This document shows, piece after piece, positions 111-20,071 of a stretch of 20,184 bases of DNA. Origin of the DNA: a virus. Where the stretch lies: the IMG/VR virus record IMGVR_UViG_3300028840_002018, positions 1 through 20,184 of that record. The stretch is one strand, 5' to 3'. A program made the translations under genes and the position numbers. The first letter of the stretch is position 1, and every line of letters starts with the position of its first letter. Under the pieces are notes generated by a model, which saw nothing but the letters and a program-made list of their open reading frames with translations, did no database searches and was not told the DNA's origin.

Positions 111-150
111 GCTTATTTTTGTTGACACGGCCGGTGCTGCGTGCCAAGAT
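111..150 (+). promoter_or_regulatory. Strong promoter, copy 1 (TTGACA-17 bp-CAAGAT) with AT-rich upstream element
   Basis: The -35 is TTGACA at 122-127 and the -10 is CAAGAT at 145-150, with a 17-bp spacer. The 25 bases before the -35 are strongly A/T-rich in an otherwise GC-rich window, resembling an UP element. Bases 111-133 are identical to 2698-2720 (23 bp), and both copies are preceded about 30 bp upstream by AAGCGGCCC. The predicted start is the A of ATGATGACGG at 157, six bases after the -10. Confidence 0.8.
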
Positions 151-156
151 TTACTC

Positions 157-192
157 ATGATGACGGACACACACACAACGGAGGGCAACTAA
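157..192 (+). CDS. Leaderless leader peptide, 11 aa (MMTDTHTTEGN)
   Basis: An ATG coincides with the predicted transcription start of the promoter at 122-150. It opens an 11-codon frame ending TAA at 190-192, two bases before the ATG of the basic protein at 195. The coding region contains the Shine-Dalgarno GGAGGG (181-185 region) of the next gene, so translating the leader could affect initiation downstream. The first ten bases, ATGATGACGG, recur at the same distance from two other promoters. No protein family is recognised. It could be translated, or the conserved bases could act only as DNA or RNA. Confidence 0.4.
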   Translation: MMTDTHTTEGN

Positions 193-194
193 CC

Positions 195-293
195 ATGGCG
201 CTGAAAAAGAACGACCGCTCCCGCAAGACCCGCAAGTCTCACCACAAGAAGCTGCGCCGCCGCGCCGACCGCGCCGCGTGCGCCGGCCGCTAG
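195..293 (+). CDS. Very basic 32-aa protein, function unknown
   Basis: The 32 residues start with MALKKNDRSRKTRKSHHKKL. More than half of them are Lys, Arg or His, with a single Cys near the end. The ATG at 195 follows a GGAGGG Shine-Dalgarno and lies two bases after the stop of the leader ORF. It is the first substantial gene behind the strongest promoter, so it is probably made early and abundantly. The composition suggests nucleic-acid binding (neutralising DNA or RNA, or a ribosome- or polymerase-binding peptide), but no family is recognised. The stop at 291-293 is 10 bases before the ATG of the next gene, which suggests co-transcription. Confidence 0.6.
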   Translation: MALKKNDRSRKTRKSHHKKLRRRADRAACAGR

Positions 294-1621: not shown

Positions 1622-1645
1622 GGACGGGGTCCTCTGGCTCCGTCC
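1622..1645 (+). repeat. Hairpin downstream of the 436-aa gene
   Basis: GGACGGGG at 1622-1629 can pair with CTCCGTCC at 1638-1645 (eight pairs including one G-U) around an eight-base loop. No T-run follows, so it is not a typical intrinsic terminator. It sits directly before the Shine-Dalgarno hairpin of the next gene and may be an RNA processing or stability element. Confidence 0.4.
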
Positions 1646-1646
1646 A

Positions 1647-1664
1647 CTAACCGAAGGGGGTTAG
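1647..1664 (+). promoter_or_regulatory. Shine-Dalgarno hairpin A (CTAACC-GAAGGG-GGTTAG)
   Basis: A perfect six-base-pair inverted repeat, CTAACC (1647-1652) with GGTTAG (1659-1664), presents GAAGGG in its loop. The loop and the start of the right arm form the ribosome-binding G-run, which ends six bases before the ATG at 1666. The same purine core with paired flanks recurs before the starts at 5553 and 7532. This fits a translational operator that ribosomes or a protein would recognise. Confidence 0.6.
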
Positions 1665-1665
1665 G

Positions 1666-1893
1666 ATGCCGATAACCTGCGACGACGGAAGGACGACCCT
1701 CCACGCGCCCGACAAGCTGGCTGCGAGGACGGCCGCGATCCCGGGGTGGGTCTACGACTACGAGGACCAGCTGGCCGCCGAGGTCGGCGACGTGACCTGC
1801 CCGGAGTGCGGCGAGCTTGTCCCCGAGGAGGACGCCGGCGAGCGGTGCCCCGGCTGCGGCTGCGATGTCGACGCGGCGGGGGGGGGGGCATAG
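1666..1893 (+). CDS. Small zinc-ribbon protein, 75 aa
   Basis: The start at 1666 is set by the hairpin-borne Shine-Dalgarno. Residues 1-40 are unremarkable; the C-terminal half is a zinc ribbon, with CPECGELV and RCPGCGCDV giving four or five potential ligands. The last codons run through an 11-G tract (1878-1888), so the Gly-Gly-Gly-Ala end depends on the exact tract length. One extra G, or a -1 slip, would join this frame to the following gene. It is probably a small nucleic-acid- or protein-binding factor; no specific family is recognised. Confidence 0.7.
   Translation: MPITCDDGRTTLHAPDKLAARTAAIPGWVYDYEDQLAAEVGDVTCPECGELVPEEDAGERCPGCGCDVDAAGGGA
1878..1888 (+). repeat. Homopolymer of 11 G
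   Basis: Eleven consecutive G residues end the 75-aa gene and lie seven bases before the ATG at 1896, so the tract can also act as that gene's ribosome binding site. Tracts of this length are prone to slippage during replication, transcription or sequencing. Confidence 0.9.
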
Positions 1894-1895
1894 AC

Positions 1896-2645
1896 ATGGC
1901 AACGATCAGAACAAGCTACGAGGCGGCCCGCGGCTGCGGCTTTCGGAAGGCCGGCGGGCTCTACTTGGTCGCCGGTTCGGAGGGCGAGCCGTGCGGCCGA
2001 TTGCCGATCGACCTGCGGGTGTGCCCGTGCTGCGGCCAGGGGATCAAGCCCGCCCGATCGTGGACGTGGATCGAACCCCGGCAGCTGATCACCGGGACCC
2101 TGTGCCGGACGATGCAAGCCGACCCGCAGTCCTGCGCCGGGCGGTGCATCCTCTCTGATCTGAGGTGCCCGGAACGCGCCGGGCTCTTGTGGATCGGCGG
2201 CAAGTTCTACCCGACCCCGGCGGCCTTCTCTGGCGAGGCGGCGAGGATGGGAGTGTCCCGCCGGATCACCGCGGTTCCGCGAGGGTTCGTCGTCGGCGAG
2301 ACGTGGGTTCTGCTCGCTCACCGCGAGGTGCTGAACCGGAACGGCGACCGCGTCCCGGCGATCTTCTCCGCGTTCCTACCGACGGCGATCGAGTACATCG
2401 TCAAAGGCACTGAGACGGACGAGGAACTCGACAAGCTCGAAGCGCGGGGGCTGACATTGGTCGACGTCAAACCGTTGCAGGCTCCCCTCGAGGCGGTCCC
2501 TGACGAACCCGACGACGGCGACCCGTGGACGTGTCCGCGGTGCGGCGCCGAGGTCGAGCCCGGCGCGCCCCGGTGCGGCGACTGCGGATCCGATCCCGAC
2601 GGCGCGCCGCCGGACCAGCTGGACCGGGATCCGCTGCCCAACTAG
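1896..2645 (+). CDS. Conserved phage zinc-finger protein, 249 aa
   Basis: The protein begins MATIRTSYEAARGCGFRKAG and carries CGRLP and CPCCGQGIKP (C43, C45, C46), then GLLWIGGKFYPTPAAFSGEA and GVSRRITAVPRGFVVGETWV. I recognise this arrangement from an uncharacterised family found in many tailed phages, with no known function. A second domain at the C-terminus is a zinc ribbon (CPRCGAEV plus CGDCGSDP, about residues 213-231) after an acidic linker; the end is rich in Asp and Pro. The ATG at 1896 follows the G-tract and lies three bases after the previous stop. The frame is open far upstream, so a fusion with the 75-aa protein is possible if the G-tract length varies. Confidence 0.85.
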   Translation: MATIRTSYEAARGCGFRKAGGLYLVAGSEGEPCGRLPIDLRVCPCCGQGIKPARSWTWIEPRQLITGTLCRTMQADPQSCAGRCILSDLRCPERAGLLWIGGKFYPTPAAFSGEAARMGVSRRITAVPRGFVVGETWVLLAHREVLNRNGDRVPAIFSAFLPTAIEYIVKGTETDEELDKLEARGLTLVDVKPLQAPLEAVPDEPDDGDPWTCPRCGAEVEPGAPRCGDCGSDPDGAPPDQLDRDPLPN

Positions 2646-2647
2646 CC

Positions 2648-2674
2648 GGCCGCCCGCCCGCTCTCCAAGCGGCC
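2648..2674 (+). repeat. Inverted repeat after the 249-aa gene
   Basis: GGCCGC at 2648-2653 can pair with GCGGCC at 2669-2674, or alternatively CCGC (2658-2661) with GCGG (2669-2672). C-rich sequence and an A-run follow rather than T's. It might weakly terminate or insulate transcription ahead of the promoter at 2709, but a terminator is not well supported. Confidence 0.3.
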
Positions 2675-2697
2675 CCCAGAAAAATCAGCACCGCCAT

Positions 2698-2737
2698 GCT
2701 TATTTTTGTTGACACGGCCGAGCCTGCGTGTAACGAT
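2698..2737 (+). promoter_or_regulatory. Strong promoter, copy 2 (TTGACA-17 bp-AACGAT)
   Basis: The -35 TTGACA is at 2709-2714 and the -10 AACGAT at 2732-2737. Bases 2698-2720 repeat 111-133 exactly, including the T-rich stretch before the -35. As in copy 1, ATGATGACGG begins six bases after the -10 (2744), and GGAGGGCAA follows as ribosome binding site. The two promoters look like a duplication, with one spacer, the -10 and the gene behind them diverged. Confidence 0.8.
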
Positions 2738-2743
2738 AGCTTC

Positions 2744-2968
2744 ATGATGACGGGGCAACACAACGGACCGGAGGGCAAAATGAATAGGCTCGGAATCGTA
2801 GAATATACCCATTACCACCACGCGATCTACGTCGACGGCTACCGCCTCGGCGACCTCCACAAAGACCACGACGGAACGTGGTCGGTCCACCACCGCGAGG
2901 CTGTCGTTGGCTCCTCGCTCGGCTACGTCCGGGCGATCGCCGCACTGCGCCGCGCGGCGGGGATCTAG
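2744..2968 (+). CDS. Small phage protein, 62 aa from ATG 2780 or 74 aa from a leaderless ATG 2744
   Basis: From ATG 2780, preceded by GGAGGGCAA, the product is 62 aa starting MNRLGIVEYTHYHHAIYVDG. The same frame is open from ATG 2744, the predicted transcription start, which would add MMTGQHNGPEGK. Both starts may be used. The sequence is rich in His and Tyr with an Ala/Arg-rich amphipathic end (GYVRAIAALRRAAGI); I recognise no family. In copy 1 of this promoter the leader stops before the next gene, whereas here it is fused in frame. The stop codon's G is the first base of a 10-G tract. Confidence 0.65.
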   Translation: MMTGQHNGPEGKMNRLGIVEYTHYHHAIYVDGYRLGDLHKDHDGTWSVHHREAVVGSSLGYVRAIAALRRAAGI

Positions 2969-2977
2969 GGGGGGGGG
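2968..2977 (+). repeat. Homopolymer of 10 G acting as likely ribosome binding site
   Basis: Ten consecutive G residues start with the last base of the preceding stop codon and end four bases before the ATG at 2982. No other Shine-Dalgarno is present, so this tract probably recruits the ribosome. Unlike the 11-G tract at 1878, it lies after the stop codon, so changing its length would alter spacing rather than reading frame. Confidence 0.8.
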
Positions 2978-2981
2978 CGGC

Positions 2982-3167
2982 ATGGGACGCCGGATCAAAC
3001 CGAAACCGACCTGCGCCGGCTGCGGCAAGCCGCTGGTGAAGTTCCACGACTACCCGGTCGAGGGTATCAAGTACAAACGCCGCCGCAAGGGCAAGGACGT
3101 GTGGGTCACGCCCCGGGTGTGCGAAACCTGCAACGAGATGGACAACAGAATGGAGGGCACCGAATGA
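2982..3167 (+). CDS. Small basic zinc-finger protein, 61 aa
   Basis: MGRRIKPKPTCAGCGKPLVK opens the protein, and CETCNEMDNR closes it, giving a CxxC...CxxC zinc ribbon around a basic middle (KYKRRRKGKD). The stop overlaps the next start in ATGA (3164-3167), which implies translational coupling to the GHKL ATPase gene. It may be a DNA-binding accessory of that protein, but this rests only on adjacency. No family name is assigned. Confidence 0.7.
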   Translation: MGRRIKPKPTCAGCGKPLVKFHDYPVEGIKYKRRRKGKDVWVTPRVCETCNEMDNRMEGTE

Positions 3168-4588
3168 AAAAACAAGGATGGTTCGACGTGGATCGCGGTG
3201 GTCTACGTCAGCTGGTCGCCGACCGCAACCCCGGCTTCATCCTCGCCGAGCTGATTCAGAATGCGTGGGATGAGCCGGGGGTGACCCGGGTCGACGTCAA
3301 GCTTGAGCCGGTGGCCGGAGCCCGGTCCGCGCTGCTCGTCGTGAAGGACGACGCGCCGGAGGGGTTCTACGAACTGGCCCACGCTTGGACGTTGTTCTCG
3401 GACACGCGGAAGCGAACCGACCCCTACGCCCGGGGCCGGTTCTGCCTCGGTGACAAGCTGGTCCTCGCGCTCTGTCGCTGGGCTGAGATCACCACCACCA
3501 CCGGGGCGGTCCGGTTCGAGTCCGACGGCACCCGCAAGCGGCGCCGGCGCAAGACCGAATCCGGCTCCGTGTTCGAGGCCGAGGTCCCGATCACCCGCCA
3601 GCAAATCGACGACGCTCTGAGCCTGGCTCGGACGTTCATTCCGCCGGACCTGATCGACACCACGATCAACGGCGACAAGCTCCCGAGCCGGGAACCGCGG
3701 GCGAGCTTCACGTGCACGCTCCCGGTGCCGCTCGCCGACGCCGACGGGGTGATGAGGGAATCCCGGCGCAAGGTTGCGGTGCGGGTGTTCGACACGCTCC
3801 GCGGCGAGTCCCCGACGCTCTACGAGATGGGGCTGCCGGTTGTCGAAACCGGCGACCGCTGGCACGTGGACATCGGCCAGAAAGTCCCGCTCAACGCCGA
3901 CCGCGACAACGTCCGGCCGAGCTACTTGCGCCGGGTGCGTGCGTTCGTGGCTAACGAGTTGGTCGACGACCTGAGCCCGGACGATGTGTCGGAGGCTTGG
4001 GTCCGCGACGCGACGACCTCTCCCGACATCGACGGCGACACCGTGCGCCGGGTCGCCGACCTGCGATGGGGCGAGAATCGGGTGGTGGTTTCGCCCGGTG
4101 ATCGATGGGGCAAGGAACGGGCGATCGCCAACGGCTTCACGATCGTCGGATCGCGGGAGCTTTCCGCGGCCGAATGGGAGCAATTCCGATCGGCCGACGC
4201 GGTCCCGGCGACCACCGACAAATTCAAGCGGGGCACCGCCAACGCGAAGATCCTGAACCGCAACCAGCTGACCCCGGGAATGCTCCGGGTCGAGCGCATG
4301 ACCAAGGCCGTGGCCCGGATCGGGCTGAACATGGACGTCCGGGTCACGTTCCTGCACTCGCCGGAGGCCACGGTGTCCGCCGACTACACACCCGGTCACG
4401 TCCGGTTCAACGTCGCGCTCCTCGGCAAGTCGTGGTTCGCCGGACCGGCCGTCCCGATCCTGCGATTGGTGATCCATGAGTTGGGACACGAAGGCGGGGG
4501 CCACCTCGAGGCTGGCTACTACGACACCCTGGCCCGGATCGGTGCACGGTTGGCCGTCGCATCCGACCGGCTGAACACGGAGGTCTGA
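3164..4588 (+). CDS. GHKL (Hsp90/histidine-kinase-like) ATPase fused to a C-terminal HExxH metallopeptidase-like domain
   Basis: The 474-aa product starts at ATG 3164 (MKKQGWFDVD), after GGAGGG and overlapping the previous stop. Bergerat-fold motifs are visible: N-box ELIQNAWDE (29-37), a divergent G1 box VKDDAPEGF (60-68), and a Gly-rich GRFCLGDK (91-98). PLNADRDNVRPSYL (242-255) is also typical of phage members of this group. The end holds VIHELGHEGGGHLE: H438-E439-L-G-H442, with H447 and E449 as further possible metal ligands. It may be an ATP-driven chaperone or regulator coupled to a protease; the pairing is known to me only as an uncharacterised phage architecture. The G1 Asp-Asp-Ala-Pro-Glu-Gly departs from the usual DxGxG, so activity is not certain. 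Confidence 0.8.
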   Translation: MKKQGWFDVDRGGLRQLVADRNPGFILAELIQNAWDEPGVTRVDVKLEPVAGARSALLVVKDDAPEGFYELAHAWTLFSDTRKRTDPYARGRFCLGDKLVLALCRWAEITTTTGAVRFESDGTRKRRRRKTESGSVFEAEVPITRQQIDDALSLARTFIPPDLIDTTINGDKLPSREPRASFTCTLPVPLADADGVMRESRRKVAVRVFDTLRGESPTLYEMGLPVVETGDRWHVDIGQKVPLNADRDNVRPSYLRRVRAFVANELVDDLSPDDVSEAWVRDATTSPDIDGDTVRRVADLRWGENRVVVSPGDRWGKERAIANGFTIVGSRELSAAEWEQFRSADAVPATTDKFKRGTANAKILNRNQLTPGMLRVERMTKAVARIGLNMDVRVTFLHSPEATVSADYTPGHVRFNVALLGKSWFAGPAVPILRLVIHELGHEGGGHLEAGYYDTLARIGARLAVASDRLNTEV

Positions 4589-4590
4589 AC

Positions 4591-4962
4591 ATGGGTCACG
4601 ACAACGACAACGACATCACCGCGCGGATCGCCAAGCTCCCGCGGTGGGCCCGGCAACACATCGACAAGCTCACCGCCGATCTCGAATCCGCCAACCGCAA
4701 GCTGCGCGCCTCCACCGACCCGGGGTCCCGGGTCCGGTGGGGGCACCTCGGCATCGACAACGACCGCGGGACCCCGATTCCCGAGGGCGAGCCGATCATC
4801 TTTTCCATGGTGCCGTTCTCCGAATGCAAGCACCGCGTTCGGATCAAGGCCGCCTACGACCCGGACACCGGGACGCTCGAAATCAGCGGTGGCGATGCGG
4901 TCGACGTGGAGCCGGTGGCGCGCAACGTGATCCGCGTCCGGTGCGGCAAGCTTTTCGACTAG
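4591..4962 (+). CDS. Conserved small phage protein with N-terminal helix (RIAKLPRWARQHIDKL)
   Basis: This 123-aa protein starts two bases after the ATPase stop, behind ACGGAGG. The N-terminal RIAKLPRWARQHIDKLTADL predicts a long amphipathic helix or coiled coil and resembles a recurrent opening of small phage proteins. The second half is beta-rich (IIFSMVPFSECKHRVRIKAA; GTLEISGGDAVDVEPVARNV). No catalytic motif is seen and no function is known. It is likely co-expressed with the upstream gene. Confidence 0.75.
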   Translation: MGHDNDNDITARIAKLPRWARQHIDKLTADLESANRKLRASTDPGSRVRWGHLGIDNDRGTPIPEGEPIIFSMVPFSECKHRVRIKAAYDPDTGTLEISGGDAVDVEPVARNVIRVRCGKLFD

Positions 4963-4968
4963 CAACGC

Positions 4969-4997
4969 TTGACGCGAACGGGCCCGCGGTGTATGCC
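4969..4997 (+). promoter_or_regulatory. Candidate promoter for the double-HTH regulator
   Basis: TTGACG at 4969-4974 and TATGCC at 4992-4997 are separated by 17 bp. The -35 with its following CG matches the other promoters (TTGACACG); the -10 is poorer. It lies in the 57-bp gap before the regulator gene, whose GGGGAGG ribosome binding site is at 5005-5011. Confidence 0.5.
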
Positions 4998-5019
4998 TAT
5001 CGGCGGGGAGGTTCATAGC

Positions 5020-5523
5020 ATGGACACTGACATCAGAATGCAAGTCAAAATCGCGGCGGCCGCGGCGGGGCTGAAGCTCGCCGACGTGGCGCGCTCTCTG
5101 AGCACCACGCCGCAACACCTCAACACGCTGCTCAGCCGGGAGAATCTGAGGCTACGGTGGGTCGAGCGGATCGCCGGTGTGATCGGGGTCCGCCCGTCGT
5201 GGCTCTTGGTTCCGCCGGGCACGTCAATCGAACCGGCACCACCCCGGGCGAAACCCCCGACCGAAACGGTACACGACAAGGTGCGAGTGCTATCGGCGCG
5301 GAGGGATCTCTCGGTGGCCGAGTTGGCGCGCCGGATCGGGATGTCGCGGCAAGCTCTCAACGAACTGCTCCGCACCGGCAACCCGAGCCTCGGACACGTC
5401 CGCCGGATCGCCGATGCGCTGGACGTCCCGCCGGCCGATCTGCTCCGCCCGGTTACCGAGGACGAGTGGGCGGACTTCGGGAGGTTCACCGCCGGGGCAC
5501 CGTTGGCCCGGGCCGCGAGCTAG
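5020..5523 (+). CDS. Regulator with two tandem XRE-like helix-turn-helix domains
   Basis: The ATG at 5020 follows GGGGAGG with good spacing and gives 167 aa. Domain 1 (about residues 5-60) contains LKLADVARSLSTTPQHLNTL and the trailing VERIAGVIGVRPSWLL. Domain 2 (about 85-148) contains LSVAELARRIGMSRQALNEL and VRRIADALDVPPADLL. Both have the five-helix Cro/CI pattern, including the [AV]RRIADAL-like fourth helix, and look like an internal duplication separated by a Pro-rich linker. No cleavage or oligomerisation domain is present. With its own promoter, it may be a Cro-like or repressor-like switch protein binding a two-part operator as a monomer; this role is inference. Confidence 0.8.
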   Translation: MDTDIRMQVKIAAAAAGLKLADVARSLSTTPQHLNTLLSRENLRLRWVERIAGVIGVRPSWLLVPPGTSIEPAPPRAKPPTETVHDKVRVLSARRDLSVAELARRIGMSRQALNELLRTGNPSLGHVRRIADALDVPPADLLRPVTEDEWADFGRFTAGAPLARAAS

Positions 5524-5533
5524 CTAGACCGAC

Positions 5534-5553
5534 TCGAACGGAAGGGGGTTCGA
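5534..5553 (+). promoter_or_regulatory. Shine-Dalgarno hairpin B (TCGAAC-GGAAGGGG-GTTCGA)
   Basis: TCGAAC (5534-5539) is perfectly complementary to GTTCGA (5548-5553), leaving GGAAGGGG in the loop. The right arm reaches the A of the start codon at 5553. The stem sequence differs from hairpins A and C but keeps complementarity, as expected for a conserved RNA structure around the ribosome binding site. Confidence 0.6.
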
Positions 5554-6371
5554 TGGTCGACCATCATTCAAGCTCACAGATCGATATGTTCTGGCGGTGT
5601 CCTCGGCAGTGGTGCTACCGGTACGAGCAAGGGTTGAAGCTCCCGCCGGGGATCGCGTTGATCCTCGGTGGTAGCGTGCACGGCGCCGCCGAACTGAACT
5701 TCAGGGCCAAGCTGATCTCGCGGGTCGACGAGCCGGTGGACGTGCTGGTCGACGCCGCGGTCACCCGCTACAACGAACGGCTCCGCGAGGACGGGATCCT
5801 TCTCTCCCGGGACGACCTCCCGGCCAAGGACAGGATCCTCTCTGAGCACAAGGACAAGGCCGTCCAGCTGACCAAAGTGTTCGCGGCCGATGTCGCACCC
5901 GGGACCCAACCCGCCCTCGTTGAAGAGCGGCTGGAAATGTCTCTGCCCGGCGTCGACAAAACGGTGATCGGGTACGTCGACGTTTACACCGAGGACCGCC
6001 GGCTGACCGACCTGAAAACCTCCAAACGGAAGTGGCCGAAGCTACGACCGCACACCGAGACTCAGCCGACGGTCTACGCCGAAATGATCCGCCAGCTTGA
6101 AGGATCCTACCCGGACCGGGTGACGTTCGACGTGCTGGTCCACACGAAAACGAAGGGGTGCTACCACCAACCCCTCGACACAACCCGAGGGCCGGACGAC
6201 ATCGCCGCTCTCGCCCGCCGGGTGCAGATAATGGAAGCGATGCAGAAGGCGGGCAACTACCCGGGCGCGAAGCCTGAGCGGGATTGGTGGTGCTCGCATA
6301 CGTGGTGCGGATATTGGGGCATCTGCGATCTGATACCGGATCGATTGCGACGCCTCCCCAACGTGGCATAG
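5553..6371 (+). CDS. PD-(D/E)XK nuclease, Cas4/RecB-like, with Cys cluster
   Basis: The 272-aa protein has the ordered motifs of the RecB/Cas4 nuclease family: SSSQIDMFWRCPRQWCYRYE at the N-terminus (C16, C21), LGGSVHGA with H43, GYVDVY (D143), DLKTSK (D153-L-K155), and QPTVYAE (Q171, Y175). It ends with WCSHTWCGYWGIC (C247, C252, C258), which with an N-terminal Cys could hold an Fe-S cluster as in AddB and Cas4. Such enzymes resect DNA ends as 5'-3' exonucleases. It is directly followed by a probable single-strand annealing protein, so the pair may act like lambda Exo/Bet. No Cas1, Cas2 or repeat array is present, so a CRISPR role is not supported. Confidence 0.9.
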   Translation: MVDHHSSSQIDMFWRCPRQWCYRYEQGLKLPPGIALILGGSVHGAAELNFRAKLISRVDEPVDVLVDAAVTRYNERLREDGILLSRDDLPAKDRILSEHKDKAVQLTKVFAADVAPGTQPALVEERLEMSLPGVDKTVIGYVDVYTEDRRLTDLKTSKRKWPKLRPHTETQPTVYAEMIRQLEGSYPDRVTFDVLVHTKTKGCYHQPLDTTRGPDDIAALARRVQIMEAMQKAGNYPGAKPERDWWCSHTWCGYWGICDLIPDRLRRLPNVA

Positions 6372-6380
6372 GAGGGGACG

Positions 6381-7508
6381 ATGAACGAGCAGAAATCTGA
6401 GACTTTCGACGACGTGCCGGCGACGACACACGACGAACTGCCGGCGCAGCTGGCGCGCACCGACGACCCGGCCTCGCCCGGGGTGGCGATGGCATCGATC
6501 GCCGCCACCGGAGAACAGGCTCGCGCGGTGGCCGAGGTGCAGGTCATGATGATCGCCGCGCTCGGAAACCCGCGCGACGAGAAGGACGTGTGGACCCGGA
6601 TGCGCCGCACGTGCAAGCGGGCGACCTTCGCCGACCGGGCGGTGTACGCTTTCAGCCGGGGCGGCCAGTCCATCACCGGCCTCGGGATCAAGGCGATCCG
6701 CGAGTTGACCGCGTGCTATCGCAACGTCGATTACGGCTACCGCGAGTTGGAGCGCGAGGGCGACGTGTCCAGGGTCGAAGCCTACGCCTGGGACATGGAG
6801 GCCAACGTCCGCGTCAAGCGCGAGTTCTGGGTGCGGCACGCCCGGGACAAGTCCGGCGGGGTGGAGTTGGTCACCGCCGAGCGCGACCGCTACGAGGTGA
6901 TCGCCTCGATGGCTCAGCGTCGCGTCCGGTCCTGCTTGGAGCAGGTCCTACCGGCCGACTACCTCGACGAAGCGATGCGCCTCGTCCACAACACCCTGCG
7001 CGCCGGCGACGGCCGCCCGATGGAGGACCGGGTCCGCGATATGGTGATCCGGTTCGGCGAGCTTGGCGTCACCGAGGCCCAGCTCGAGGGGTTCCTGCTC
7101 CACCCGTTGCGGTCCACCCGCCCGGAGGAGATGCCGCGCCTCCAACAGATCCACAACTCGATCCGCGACGGCATGGCCCGGATCACCGACTTTTTCAAGG
7201 CGGGGGCCGCGCCACCGGACTCTGATCCGCCGGCCGACCCCGGCCCCCCCGGCGACACCCCGCCCGACGACGAGCCGGAGGTCGACCCCGAAACCGGCGA
7301 GGTGGTCCCGCCACCGGAGCCGCCCGCCGAGCCCGAGCCCGAGCCCGAGCCGGCCGCGGACCCGGCGCCCGATCCCGGGGCTGAGGCGAGCGACACGCCC
7401 CCCCCTGCCCCGCCGGACGACGAGCCCGACCCGTTCGCCGCGGGAGAAGGAGGGGCGCAGGGAACGCTGCTGGACCCCGGTGAGGAGGATCCGTTCGCAC
7501 GCAAGTAG
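6381..7508 (+). CDS. Probable phage recombination (single-strand annealing-type) protein with acidic Pro-rich tail
   Basis: The 375-aa protein starts after AGGAGGGG. Its core (about residues 45-260) includes EVQVMMIAALGNPRDEKDVW, RATFADRAVYAFSRGGQSIT, GLGIKAIRELTACYRNVDYG, VEAYAWDMEANVRVKREFWV and YEVIASMAQRRVRSCLEQVL. I recognise this pattern from a widespread uncharacterised phage family usually found beside nucleases. Its role as an annealing protein is inferred from that context rather than shown by motifs. Residues from about 267 on are a Pro/Asp/Glu-rich tail of roughly 100 aa ending LLDPGEEDPFARK. This resembles the acidic C-terminal tip of SSB proteins and may recruit partners. Confidence 0.7.
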   Translation: MNEQKSETFDDVPATTHDELPAQLARTDDPASPGVAMASIAATGEQARAVAEVQVMMIAALGNPRDEKDVWTRMRRTCKRATFADRAVYAFSRGGQSITGLGIKAIRELTACYRNVDYGYRELEREGDVSRVEAYAWDMEANVRVKREFWVRHARDKSGGVELVTAERDRYEVIASMAQRRVRSCLEQVLPADYLDEAMRLVHNTLRAGDGRPMEDRVRDMVIRFGELGVTEAQLEGFLLHPLRSTRPEEMPRLQQIHNSIRDGMARITDFFKAGAAPPDSDPPADPGPPGDTPPDDEPEVDPETGEVVPPPEPPAEPEPEPEPAADPAPDPGAEASDTPPPAPPDDEPDPFAAGEGGAQGTLLDPGEEDPFARK

Positions 7509-7513
7509 GCACA

Positions 7514-7529
7514 TAACCGAAGGGGGTTA
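7514..7529 (+). promoter_or_regulatory. Shine-Dalgarno hairpin C (TAACC-GAAGGG-GGTTA)
   Basis: TAACC (7514-7518) and GGTTA (7525-7529) flank the loop GAAGGG (7519-7524). The 16-base core equals that of hairpin A, while the surrounding bases differ. It ends two bases before the ATG at 7532. Confidence 0.6.
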
Positions 7530-7531
7530 CA

Positions 7532-8401
7532 ATGCCACGGAAAAAGAAACCGAAAACGAAGCCTGACCACTACGTCCGATCGCAGCACGGCGCGCAACTC
7601 TGCAAGCTCGTCCGAGAGATCGACGGGACCGACGCCGGCCGGTGGCCGATCGACGTCGCCGAGAAGGTGGCCGCCACCGCCAACCGAGCCTTCAACGAGA
7701 AGGCGTCGCCGAAGTGCTGGCGCCAGCGGTACACCGCCGCGACCCGCACGCTCGACGCGAAGGGCCAGCAATTGCGGGCCCGGATCCGGGCGGCGATGAA
7801 GGCGAAGGGGGTGTCGACGATCACCGACCTCGCCGAGCGGTGCCCGAACCTGAGCCGTCCGCAGCTGGACTACCGCGTCCGGGGCCAGATCCCGTGGACC
7901 GACGACCAGCTGGCCGAGGTCGGCAAGGCTCTCGGGATCGACCTTGCCGGGCACATGGACGGGGACAAGCAGTCCGAACTGCCCCTCGCCGAGAACGGCG
8001 ACGGCGACCCGTCCCTGGCTCAGCCGAAGGGGTTGGTCTACGACGGCCCGGGGTCCGGTATCGTCCCGCCGTTCAACGAACCGTGTCAGCTGGCACCGTC
8101 GGGGACCGTCGCCGCGGCGCGCGACTCTCTCGCCGCGTGGGCGAGGATGCACCTGCCCGCCGGGGTCAGCATCTTCACCGCGCTCAAAGAGATGGGGATC
8201 CTCCCCGACGGCAAGGACGACGACGCCAACGCCCGGATCGAGTGCGCGAAGGAAATCCTGCGCGACCAGTGGAAGCGGTTCGTTCGGTCGGGCAAATGGT
8301 CCGACCCGCACCGGATCCACACGGCCCTGAGCGTGCTCGAGGGGGCCACGCCGCCGTGGCCGATCAAGGCTGAGAAGAACGGGGCCGAGGGGAACGGTTG
8401 A
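7532..8401 (+). CDS. Unknown 289-aa protein with a possible central helix-turn-helix
   Basis: The start follows hairpin C. The N-terminus is highly basic (MPRKKKPKTKPDHYVRSQHG), with a helical segment to about residue 75. Residues 90-140 (GVSTITDLAERCPNLSRPQL, then QIPWTDDQLAEVGKALGIDL) look like an XRE-type HTH. A charged, low-complexity linker (145-180) leads to a second helical domain (190-275) without a recognised signature. It sits between the recombination pair and the replication initiator, which suggests a DNA-processing or regulatory role; no specific function can be given. The initiator's promoter overlaps its stop codon. Confidence 0.7.
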   Translation: MPRKKKPKTKPDHYVRSQHGAQLCKLVREIDGTDAGRWPIDVAEKVAATANRAFNEKASPKCWRQRYTAATRTLDAKGQQLRARIRAAMKAKGVSTITDLAERCPNLSRPQLDYRVRGQIPWTDDQLAEVGKALGIDLAGHMDGDKQSELPLAENGDGDPSLAQPKGLVYDGPGSGIVPPFNEPCQLAPSGTVAAARDSLAAWARMHLPAGVSIFTALKEMGILPDGKDDDANARIECAKEILRDQWKRFVRSGKWSDPHRIHTALSVLEGATPPWPIKAEKNGAEGNG

Positions 8402-14081: not shown

Positions 14082-14088
14082 AAACAGC

Positions 14089-14117
14089 TTGACACGCTCG
14101 CGGGGCGGTGTTACGAT
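14089..14117 (+). promoter_or_regulatory. Promoter, copy 3 (TTGACA-17 bp-TACGAT)
   Basis: TTGACA at 14089-14094 and TACGAT at 14112-14117 are separated by 17 bp. As in copies 1 and 2, ATGATGACGG starts exactly six bases after the -10 (14124). The A/T-rich upstream element of those copies is absent here. It drives a long structured leader and then the HNH-like gene. Confidence 0.8.
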
Positions 14118-14123
14118 TCCCCC

Positions 14124-14183
14124 ATGATGACGGGAACAACCCAACCCACGAACGCAACGCCGCGCCTTCGCGGGATCGTCTGA
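14124..14183 (+). CDS. Leaderless leader peptide, 19 aa (MMTGTTQPTNATPRLRGIV)
   Basis: An ATG at the predicted transcription start opens a 19-codon frame that ends TGA at 14181-14183. It shares the MMTG opening with the frame at 2744. The stop lies inside a 14-base segment (14172-14185) that can pair with 14230-14243. A ribosome translating or terminating here would therefore change leader folding. It is Thr/Pro/Arg-rich, with no recognised family. Confidence 0.4.
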   Translation: MMTGTTQPTNATPRLRGIV

Positions 14184-19586: not shown

Positions 19587-20045
19587 ATGATTACGGGGGT
19601 TTGCGCCGAAGCCAAAGGGACTGGTCAGCCAGTCGCAGCCAGGTACAGGGCGCTGAAGGTCGCCGCGGTTGCGAAACGACTCAGCGTCACAGAGAAGATG
19701 GTCCGCGAGCTATTGAGGCGCGGCACGTTGCCCGGGTTCAAGATTGGTCGGGCGTGGCGTGTCGCAGAGTCAACCGTCGACGACGTGATCGCAGGTCGGT
19801 TGTCGTTGGAGGTTGGAGGGCAAGATGCGACCCCAGGATCTTTACATCGAGGCGACGCACACCCGGACGGAAACGGAGGAGGAAAAGTTGCAGCGCCAGC
19901 TGGAACTGCTCACCACCGAACGGCAACGGGACAAGCGGACGATTCGCCGGTTGGAGGATCTCGCCGACCGCCAAGCGCAGGAGTTGCTGCGATTGCGGCG
20001 TCGGCCGATCCCTGCCGCGGAGGTGCCGGCGCCCTGAAGGTGTGA
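19587..20045 (+). CDS. Excisionase/MerR-type HTH protein, 152 aa, with long 3' overlap
   Basis: Residues 21-75 (YRALKVAAVAKRLSVTEKMV, then LLRRGTLPGFKIGRAWRVAE) match the HTH_17 pattern of excisionases and AlpA-like proteins, including KIGRAWR and the final helix STVDDVIAG. Such proteins bend DNA in excision or regulate transcription. After about residue 79 the sequence becomes Gly/Pro/Ala/His-rich and lies inside the following gene in another frame for 213 bp. The real protein may end earlier if a base is wrong, or the tail may be disordered. The start at 19587 is chosen for AGAGGG upstream; its spacing is short. Confidence 0.65.
   Translation: MITGVCAEAKGTGQPVAARYRALKVAAVAKRLSVTEKMVRELLRRGTLPGFKIGRAWRVAESTVDDVIAGRLSLEVGGQDATPGSLHRGDAHPDGNGGGKVAAPAGTAHHRTATGQADDSPVGGSRRPPSAGVAAIAASADPCRGGAGALKV
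19825..20037 (+). CDS. Small coiled-coil protein, 70 aa
   Basis: ATG 19825 follows a strong GGAGGG. MRPQDLYIEATHTRTETEEE is followed by KLQRQLELLTTERQRDKRTI and RRLEDLADRQAQELLRLRRR, a continuous heptad-like coiled coil. It lies wholly inside the longer excisionase-like frame. The ribosome site and typical protein composition make it the more convincing gene for this stretch. The function is unknown. Confidence 0.65.
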   Translation: MRPQDLYIEATHTRTETEEEKLQRQLELLTTERQRDKRTIRRLEDLADRQAQELLRLRRRPIPAAEVPAP

Positions 20046-20071
20046 CGCGACCTCACGGAAGGGGGTTCGAC

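Follow-up and report, generated by a model that had tools for sequence, protein, structure and literature searches.

Short sequences repeated just before translation starts have been described for the cluster K mycobacteriophages as start-associated sequences (SAS); they are located in the non-structural half of the genome, contain a Shine-Dalgarno sequence, occur in one orientation and feature complementary outer ends, with rare copies away from starts, and have been without an assigned role since 2011 (Pope et al., 2011; PMC3203893). Furthermore, hairpins hiding the Shine-Dalgarno sequence or the AUG represent an established phage device, as known for e, soc, 49 and I-TevI of phage T4 (PMC3014915). 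Here, we describe three hairpins (A, B and C) at gene starts in the IMG/VR virus record IMGVR_UViG_3300028840_002018, analyzed as a stretch of 20,184 bases (the window). Like the SAS, the family to which they belong is repeated before starts in one orientation, carries a Shine-Dalgarno sequence and complementary ends and includes an off-start copy; the comparison with cluster K drawn in an earlier, sequence-only reading of this DNA is apt as a likeness in kind, with a differing sequence. As a tentative explanation, we favour start-associated ribosome-binding elements that form a small family with the core AAC(C/G)GAAGGGGGTT and would act in cis on translation. New in this study is a second predicted helix at B and C, which covers the start codon and whose 5' arm lies at or near the stop codon of the upstream gene.

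The window corresponds near-perfectly to bases 62650-82950 of the 94,119-base IMG/VR contig IMGVR_UViG_3300017960_000001 (19,660 aligned bases with three mismatches, then 540 with none) and, as it is contained in this 94-kb contig, the latter was taken as the genome for all background tests. It is marked as a tailed phage by genes for the large terminase, portal and tape-measure proteins. Starts were predicted by a simple codon and Shine-Dalgarno model, giving an uncurated set of 134 genes, of which almost all lie on the same strand.

Hairpin sites and their sequence family

The three hairpins are located as follows (window positions):

1647-1664, plus strand: site A, CTAACC-GAAGGG-GGTTAG, 1 nucleotide (nt) before the ATG at 1666 of a small zinc-ribbon-like gene
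5534-5553, plus strand: site B, TCGAAC-GGAAGGGG-GTTCGA, its final base being the A of the ATG at 5553 of a PDDEXK nuclease gene
7514-7529, plus strand: site C, TAACC-GAAGGG-GGTTA, 2 nt before the ATG at 7532 of a helix-turn-helix (HTH) protein gene

Both the places and the letters given for these hairpins in the sequence-only reading were borne out by our check; the loops differ in length (6 and 8). Of all pairs of start regions in the contig, A and C have the longest stretch in common, with 16 identical nt, TAACCGAAGGGGGTTA; B shares 15 identical nt, CGGAAGGGGGTTCGA, with a further site, D. Matches of this length cannot be put down to chance, and a sequence family thus exists. A search for near-identical patterns in the 94-kb contig revealed two further copies, D and E; overall, five clear (A-E) and two weak copies (F and G) are present:

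20049-20070, plus strand: site D, partial copy of B with CGGAAGGGGGTTCGA identical; no start codon after it, stem broken
contig 90327, outside the window, plus strand: site E, AACCGAAGGGGGCTAccATG; at a start, unable to form the stem
contig 26170, plus strand: weak copy F; not counted in support of the fold
contig 28929, plus strand: weak copy G; not counted in support of the fold

All copies are found on the plus strand and six of the seven lie 1-3 nt before a predicted start, F and G being weak members of this count. Site D had been proposed as a weaker, bulged version of the hairpin, of which the common 15 nt with B remain. Its GGTTCGA motif led to the idea of a tRNA; no tRNA was found. Site E directly follows a promoter-like TTGACG-17-TAGTAT, read by eye. 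A match to Rfam was found for none of the sites within the window. Taken as a whole, the copies constitute a genuine, if small, family of start-associated sequences, with a likely local RNA structure at A-C.

At A, B and C, the element is predicted to fold into a hairpin of 5-6 bp with upper-stem pair probabilities of about 0.95-0.99 in 160-nt windows (A 0.98-0.99, B 0.95 and C 0.99 in the widest window). The loop would display the first half of a strong Shine-Dalgarno sequence and the 3' arm would hold the second; accordingly, the earlier claim of Shine-Dalgarno sequences presented in hairpin loops stands for the first half only, as the 9-nt complement to the 16S rRNA tail is located partly in the loop and partly in the 3' arm of the stem. 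The energies of the stems alone amount to -6.8 (A), -6.7 (B) and -4.2 kcal/mol (C), those of the Shine-Dalgarno/16S duplex to -12.8 kcal/mol for A and C and -15.6 kcal/mol for B. Since stems of -4 to -7 kcal/mol are weaker than this pairing, they should slow initiation and not block it. The stem should thus serve as a brake or display rather than a lock, and the ribosome can win against it.

In 45-nt folds, a second helix with a 2-nt 5' bulge covers the start codon at all three sites. The assumption of a second helix common to the three was rejected, as it fails at A with flanks of at least 25 nt, and we consequently claim it for B and C only, where it is stable to flank size, with probabilities of 0.78-0.84 (B) and 0.91-0.99 (C) when the flanks are wider. 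The features concerned are:

5527-5558, plus strand: site B with second helix GACCG (5527-5531)/TGGUC (5554-5558), which includes the start codon; 2-nt 5' bulge; probability 0.78-0.92
7508-7536, plus strand: site C, whose second helix, GGCA (7508-7511)/TGCC (7533-7536), covers the start codon; probability 0.91-1.0
1622-1645, plus strand: strong 10-bp hairpin GGACGGGGTC-CTCT-GGCTCCGTCC directly upstream of A, in the minimum free energy fold; competes with the start-codon pairing of A

When the flanks of other genes of the phage were used instead, a helix of at least 4 bp that takes in the AUG appeared in 7.2% (B) and 8.1% (C) of the trials and one with a 2-nt bulge in 0.5% (B) and 1.3% (C), percentages to be read in the light of the second helix having been noticed post hoc. 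The upstream gene of B ends in a stop codon (5521-5523) at a distance of 3 nt from the 5' arm of the second helix, and at C the upstream stop codon TAG (7506-7508) overlaps this arm by one base, the last of the stop codon being the first of the arm. Given its footprint, a terminating ribosome would cover the 5' arms at both sites. As the upstream stop codons lie close to or overlap these arms, a model of translational coupling can be drawn up for B and C: a ribosome finishing the upstream gene would occupy the 5' arm of the second helix and thereby free the start, so that the nuclease gene and the HTH gene could each depend for their translation on that of the preceding gene. The arrangement suggests such coupling at B and C.

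Weighing of the explanations

Perfect stems of at least 5 bp with the Shine-Dalgarno core in the loop were found at 4 of 133 predicted starts of the 94-kb contig (1.0 expected from dinucleotide shuffles), a count reached in about 1% of 200 shuffles, and A, B and C account for three of the four. Among the six starts carrying GAAGGGGG, a class chosen post hoc after the data had been seen, P for three such stems is about 9e-6; counting A and C as one event raises it to about 6e-4. In a second test, positions -13 to +3 were kept constant and the flanks shuffled; here, strong Shine-Dalgarno loops with a paired AUG numbered 5 vs 2.5 expected (8% of shuffles).

Several observations weigh against the explanation favoured here. 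The excess of stems is gone if a looser core or G-U pairs are allowed (5 vs 3.3 and 8 vs 4.6 expected), and with the Shine-Dalgarno sequence and start fixed, Shine-Dalgarno loops are not in excess genome-wide (21 observed, 24.8 expected). The genome-wide scan for paired flanks advised by the sequence-only reading hence gives an enrichment for perfect stems and none under the fixed test; as the excess is lost in this way, it concerns only this group, and the hairpins are a local feature with no general use across the genome. Moreover, the upper stem of A depends on its flanks, falling to 0.23-0.31 with flanks of 25-40 nt, and in terms of whole-region fold energy C is the only notable site (z -3.2), the values of A (z 0.15) and B (z -1.3) being ordinary. 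With flanks of at least 25 nt, the second helix of A drops to 0.0, its 5' strand being taken by the 10-bp hairpin; since the latter separates A from the upstream stop codon, the coupling model is not suited to A. The core is also found without the stem, at a real start in the case of E and away from any start in the case of D, which shows that the sequence can be retained in the absence of the structure. All covariation measures in the seven-copy alignment are at the shuffle mean, e.g., 71.4% paired cells vs a mean of 70.4, the weakest copies F and G counting against structure. Finally, no close relatives for an assessment of conservation were found in phage records, IMG/VR or one genome scan.

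With regard to covariation, A, C and B aligned on the core share three pairs outright, and one pair is changed on both sides (T-A in A/C, G-C in B); the outer stem of B differs from that of A/C and still pairs over 6 bp. A single double change together with the lack of a signal over seven copies means that the earlier description of the stems as covarying was overstated and refers to one event.

It is quite possible that only a ribosome-binding sequence is shared, i.e., that a strong Shine-Dalgarno cassette was copied within the genome and the pairing of its flanks is incidental and unused, which would make the sites an ordinary matter. The persistence of the core without the stem at D and E and the covariation at the shuffle mean are in line with such copying, and this phage also reuses other start motifs without hairpins, GGAGGGCACC and TAGGAGGACAC (contig starts 3633, 62953, 65813, 82965 and 11636, 61498, 87335, 88583). 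In other viral contigs, AACCGAAGGGGGTT before ATG likewise gave scattered, unrelated matches. However, the excess of stems of at least 5 bp at A-C over shuffles, the outer stem of B, which differs in sequence and still pairs over 6 bp, and the second helix at B and C speak against a mere cassette.

Translational operators, at which a phage or host protein would bind the hairpin loop and repress or activate the three genes together, appear unlikely. The same loop core and a similar geometry recur at the three starts, B and C recall the replicase operator of RNA phages in that their hairpins include the start codon (PMC3561173), and the early region encodes an uncharacterised, very basic peptide of 32 amino acids (window 195-293). 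No binding protein was identified, however; the stem is lost at E and the loop length varies. In CsrA/RsmA targets, the hairpin loop at the Shine-Dalgarno sequence contains GGA, which B has and which is missing from the A/C loop GAAGGG; CsrA itself (PF02599) had no match in the 94-kb contig, with positive controls. The regulon bound by a phage protein, which the sequence-only reading had proposed, is thus left with hairpins that exceed chance locally at three starts and has no direct support: covariation comes down to the one double change, the stem is broken at D and E, and CsrA, the one known regulator of Shine-Dalgarno loops for which a search was made, is absent from the contig. A mechanism without a trans factor, in which the ribosome completing the upstream gene opens a local hairpin, would fit B and C at least as well. 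We consider it decidedly unlikely that the family is the site of a phage RNA-binding protein which coordinates the translation of recombination and regulatory genes, with the loop Shine-Dalgarno sequence as recognition core; if true, such a protein-bound family would provide a model for what cluster K SAS do.

DNA operators, i.e., inverted repeats bound as double-stranded DNA by an HTH protein encoded here, are very improbable. The repeats are perfect over 16-20 bp, B and C have two HTH genes next to them and D is not at a start, yet promoter-like sites are absent at A and B, with only a poor one overlapping C, what the sites share is a purine core that is asymmetric, keeps to one orientation and is placed 1-3 nt before starts, and the half-sites differ between A/C and B. 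Chance, in the sense of three unrelated coincidences among many starts, could draw on the modest genome-wide excess and its loss with the Shine-Dalgarno sequence fixed and is hardly credible given the 16-nt A/C and 15-nt B/D identities, the shared cores having already disfavoured it.

Genes, relatives and genome context

The genes at the sites, including the one between B and C, are:

1666-1893, plus strand: protein of 75 amino acids, weak double-zinc-ribbon match (E 0.0056, below the Pfam cut-off)
5553-6371, plus strand: PD-(D/E)XK nuclease in a RecE/Cas4-like position before the RecT-like gene (E 5.5e-15)
6381-7508, plus strand: RecT-like single-strand annealing protein (phrog_3657, 3e-73)
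7532-8401, plus strand: protein of 289 amino acids with a repressor-like HTH (phrog_4583, 3.7e-7); no relatives found

The labels zinc ribbon (by a weak match), nuclease (PDDEXK) and HTH protein (by a repressor-like match) assigned earlier hold. The RecT-like gene features an ordinary Shine-Dalgarno sequence without a hairpin of the A-C kind.

The whole window had no match in a megablast search of phage records, and scans of viral contigs with the nuclease, RecT-like, HTH, DnaB and 304-1614 proteins retrieved only two contigs, both of the same phage. Besides the 94-kb contig, one of 25 kb from this phage also covers the region. For the HTH protein (7532-8401), one genome scan yielded no match in genome contigs. 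The RecT-like protein could be aligned to at least 78 other viral loci, with at most 47% identity among the matches listed, and four loci among these listed matches carry a relative of the nuclease (31-35%). No such hairpin was found at the nuclease starts inspected in these distant RecT-type relatives, which says little at that distance. Scans of viral contigs for the A-type pattern gave scattered matches unrelated to this phage except for weak structural-gene matches in two, and the B-type pattern gave two extra matches, which fold unlike B.

Apart from the hairpin sites, further features were observed. The start of a tandem-HTH gene (5020) lies within an imperfect inverted repeat, GTGTATGCcTAT ... 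ATAGCATGgACAC, around GGGGAGG (window 4966-5062); the repeat overlaps a promoter-like TTGACG-17-TATGCC and is possibly an autoregulatory operator or a start hairpin. The strongly basic peptide of 32 amino acids (MALKKNDRSRKTRKSHHKKLRRRADRAACAGR, window 195-293) heads a gene group and is a possible nucleic-acid binder. Promoter-like stretches, read by eye as TTGACACG-n-(T)(A/G)CGAT or similar, are located at window 121-170, 2703-2760 and 14088-14135, each ahead of a gene group and with a common CATGATGACGG just downstream. The first 22 bases of the 94-kb contig recur at its end, and due to this repeat the contig may be a complete genome. In comparison to it, the window is without about 117 bp (contig 82308-82411), the junction being at window 19645-19659 with a 15-nt overlap; this gap sits inside an excisionase-like gene (19587-20045) and looks like a deletion between short repeats.

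Comparison with known systems

Among the RNA-phage systems, the replicase operator hairpins of MS2, PRR1 and phage M also surround the start codon and have unpaired bases on the 5' side of the stem, whereas here the loop holds the Shine-Dalgarno sequence, and the loop and bulge sequences differ (PMC3561173). The T4 gp43 operator is similarly a small hairpin near a phage ribosome-binding site, but it precedes the start by about 40 nt, and its loop does not contain the Shine-Dalgarno sequence (PMC3014915). Together with the cluster K SAS, the T4 hairpins of the e type are the closest known kind; the AUG at B and C is predicted to be paired in a local helix that is robust to flanks, which it is not at A. 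For e and I-TevI, late promoters yield transcripts without the 5' strand (PMC3014915); in contrast, no promoter-like site is present at A or B, and a single poor match (9 of 12) overlaps C.

In comparison to the cluster K SAS, the differences mainly concern sequence and number. The SAS consensus GGGATAGGAGCCC (13 bp) is unlike the sequence found here: allowing up to two mismatches, one match (two mismatches) was obtained in the 94-kb contig, at 83306 inside a predicted gene, and the same search as positive control retrieved 16 copies in Anaya and 18 in Pixie, covering parts of each genome. Cluster K genomes contain 11-19 copies, in contrast to 4-5 here, and the outer pairing is mostly 3 bp in Anaya and Pixie vs 5-6 bp in this phage. 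In cluster K, the elements named ESAS comprise 17-bp inverted repeats with a SigA-like promoter upstream of SAS (PMC3203893). No extended inverted repeat was seen here; A and B are without a promoter-like site upstream, and E has the promoter-like TTGACG-17-TAGTAT read by eye. One SAS copy of Pixie (L136 10520) reads CGGATAGGAGCCG, in which the outer G-C is changed to C-G and the 3-bp complement is kept; other copies break the complement.

The element resembles the cluster K SAS in kind without being an SAS. The presence of repeated start-associated sequences in a second, unrelated phage, here with complementary ends of greater length, speaks for a view in which such elements could have arisen more than once. 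In this context, a local hairpin combined with translational coupling might offer a simple idea applicable to both this phage and cluster K.

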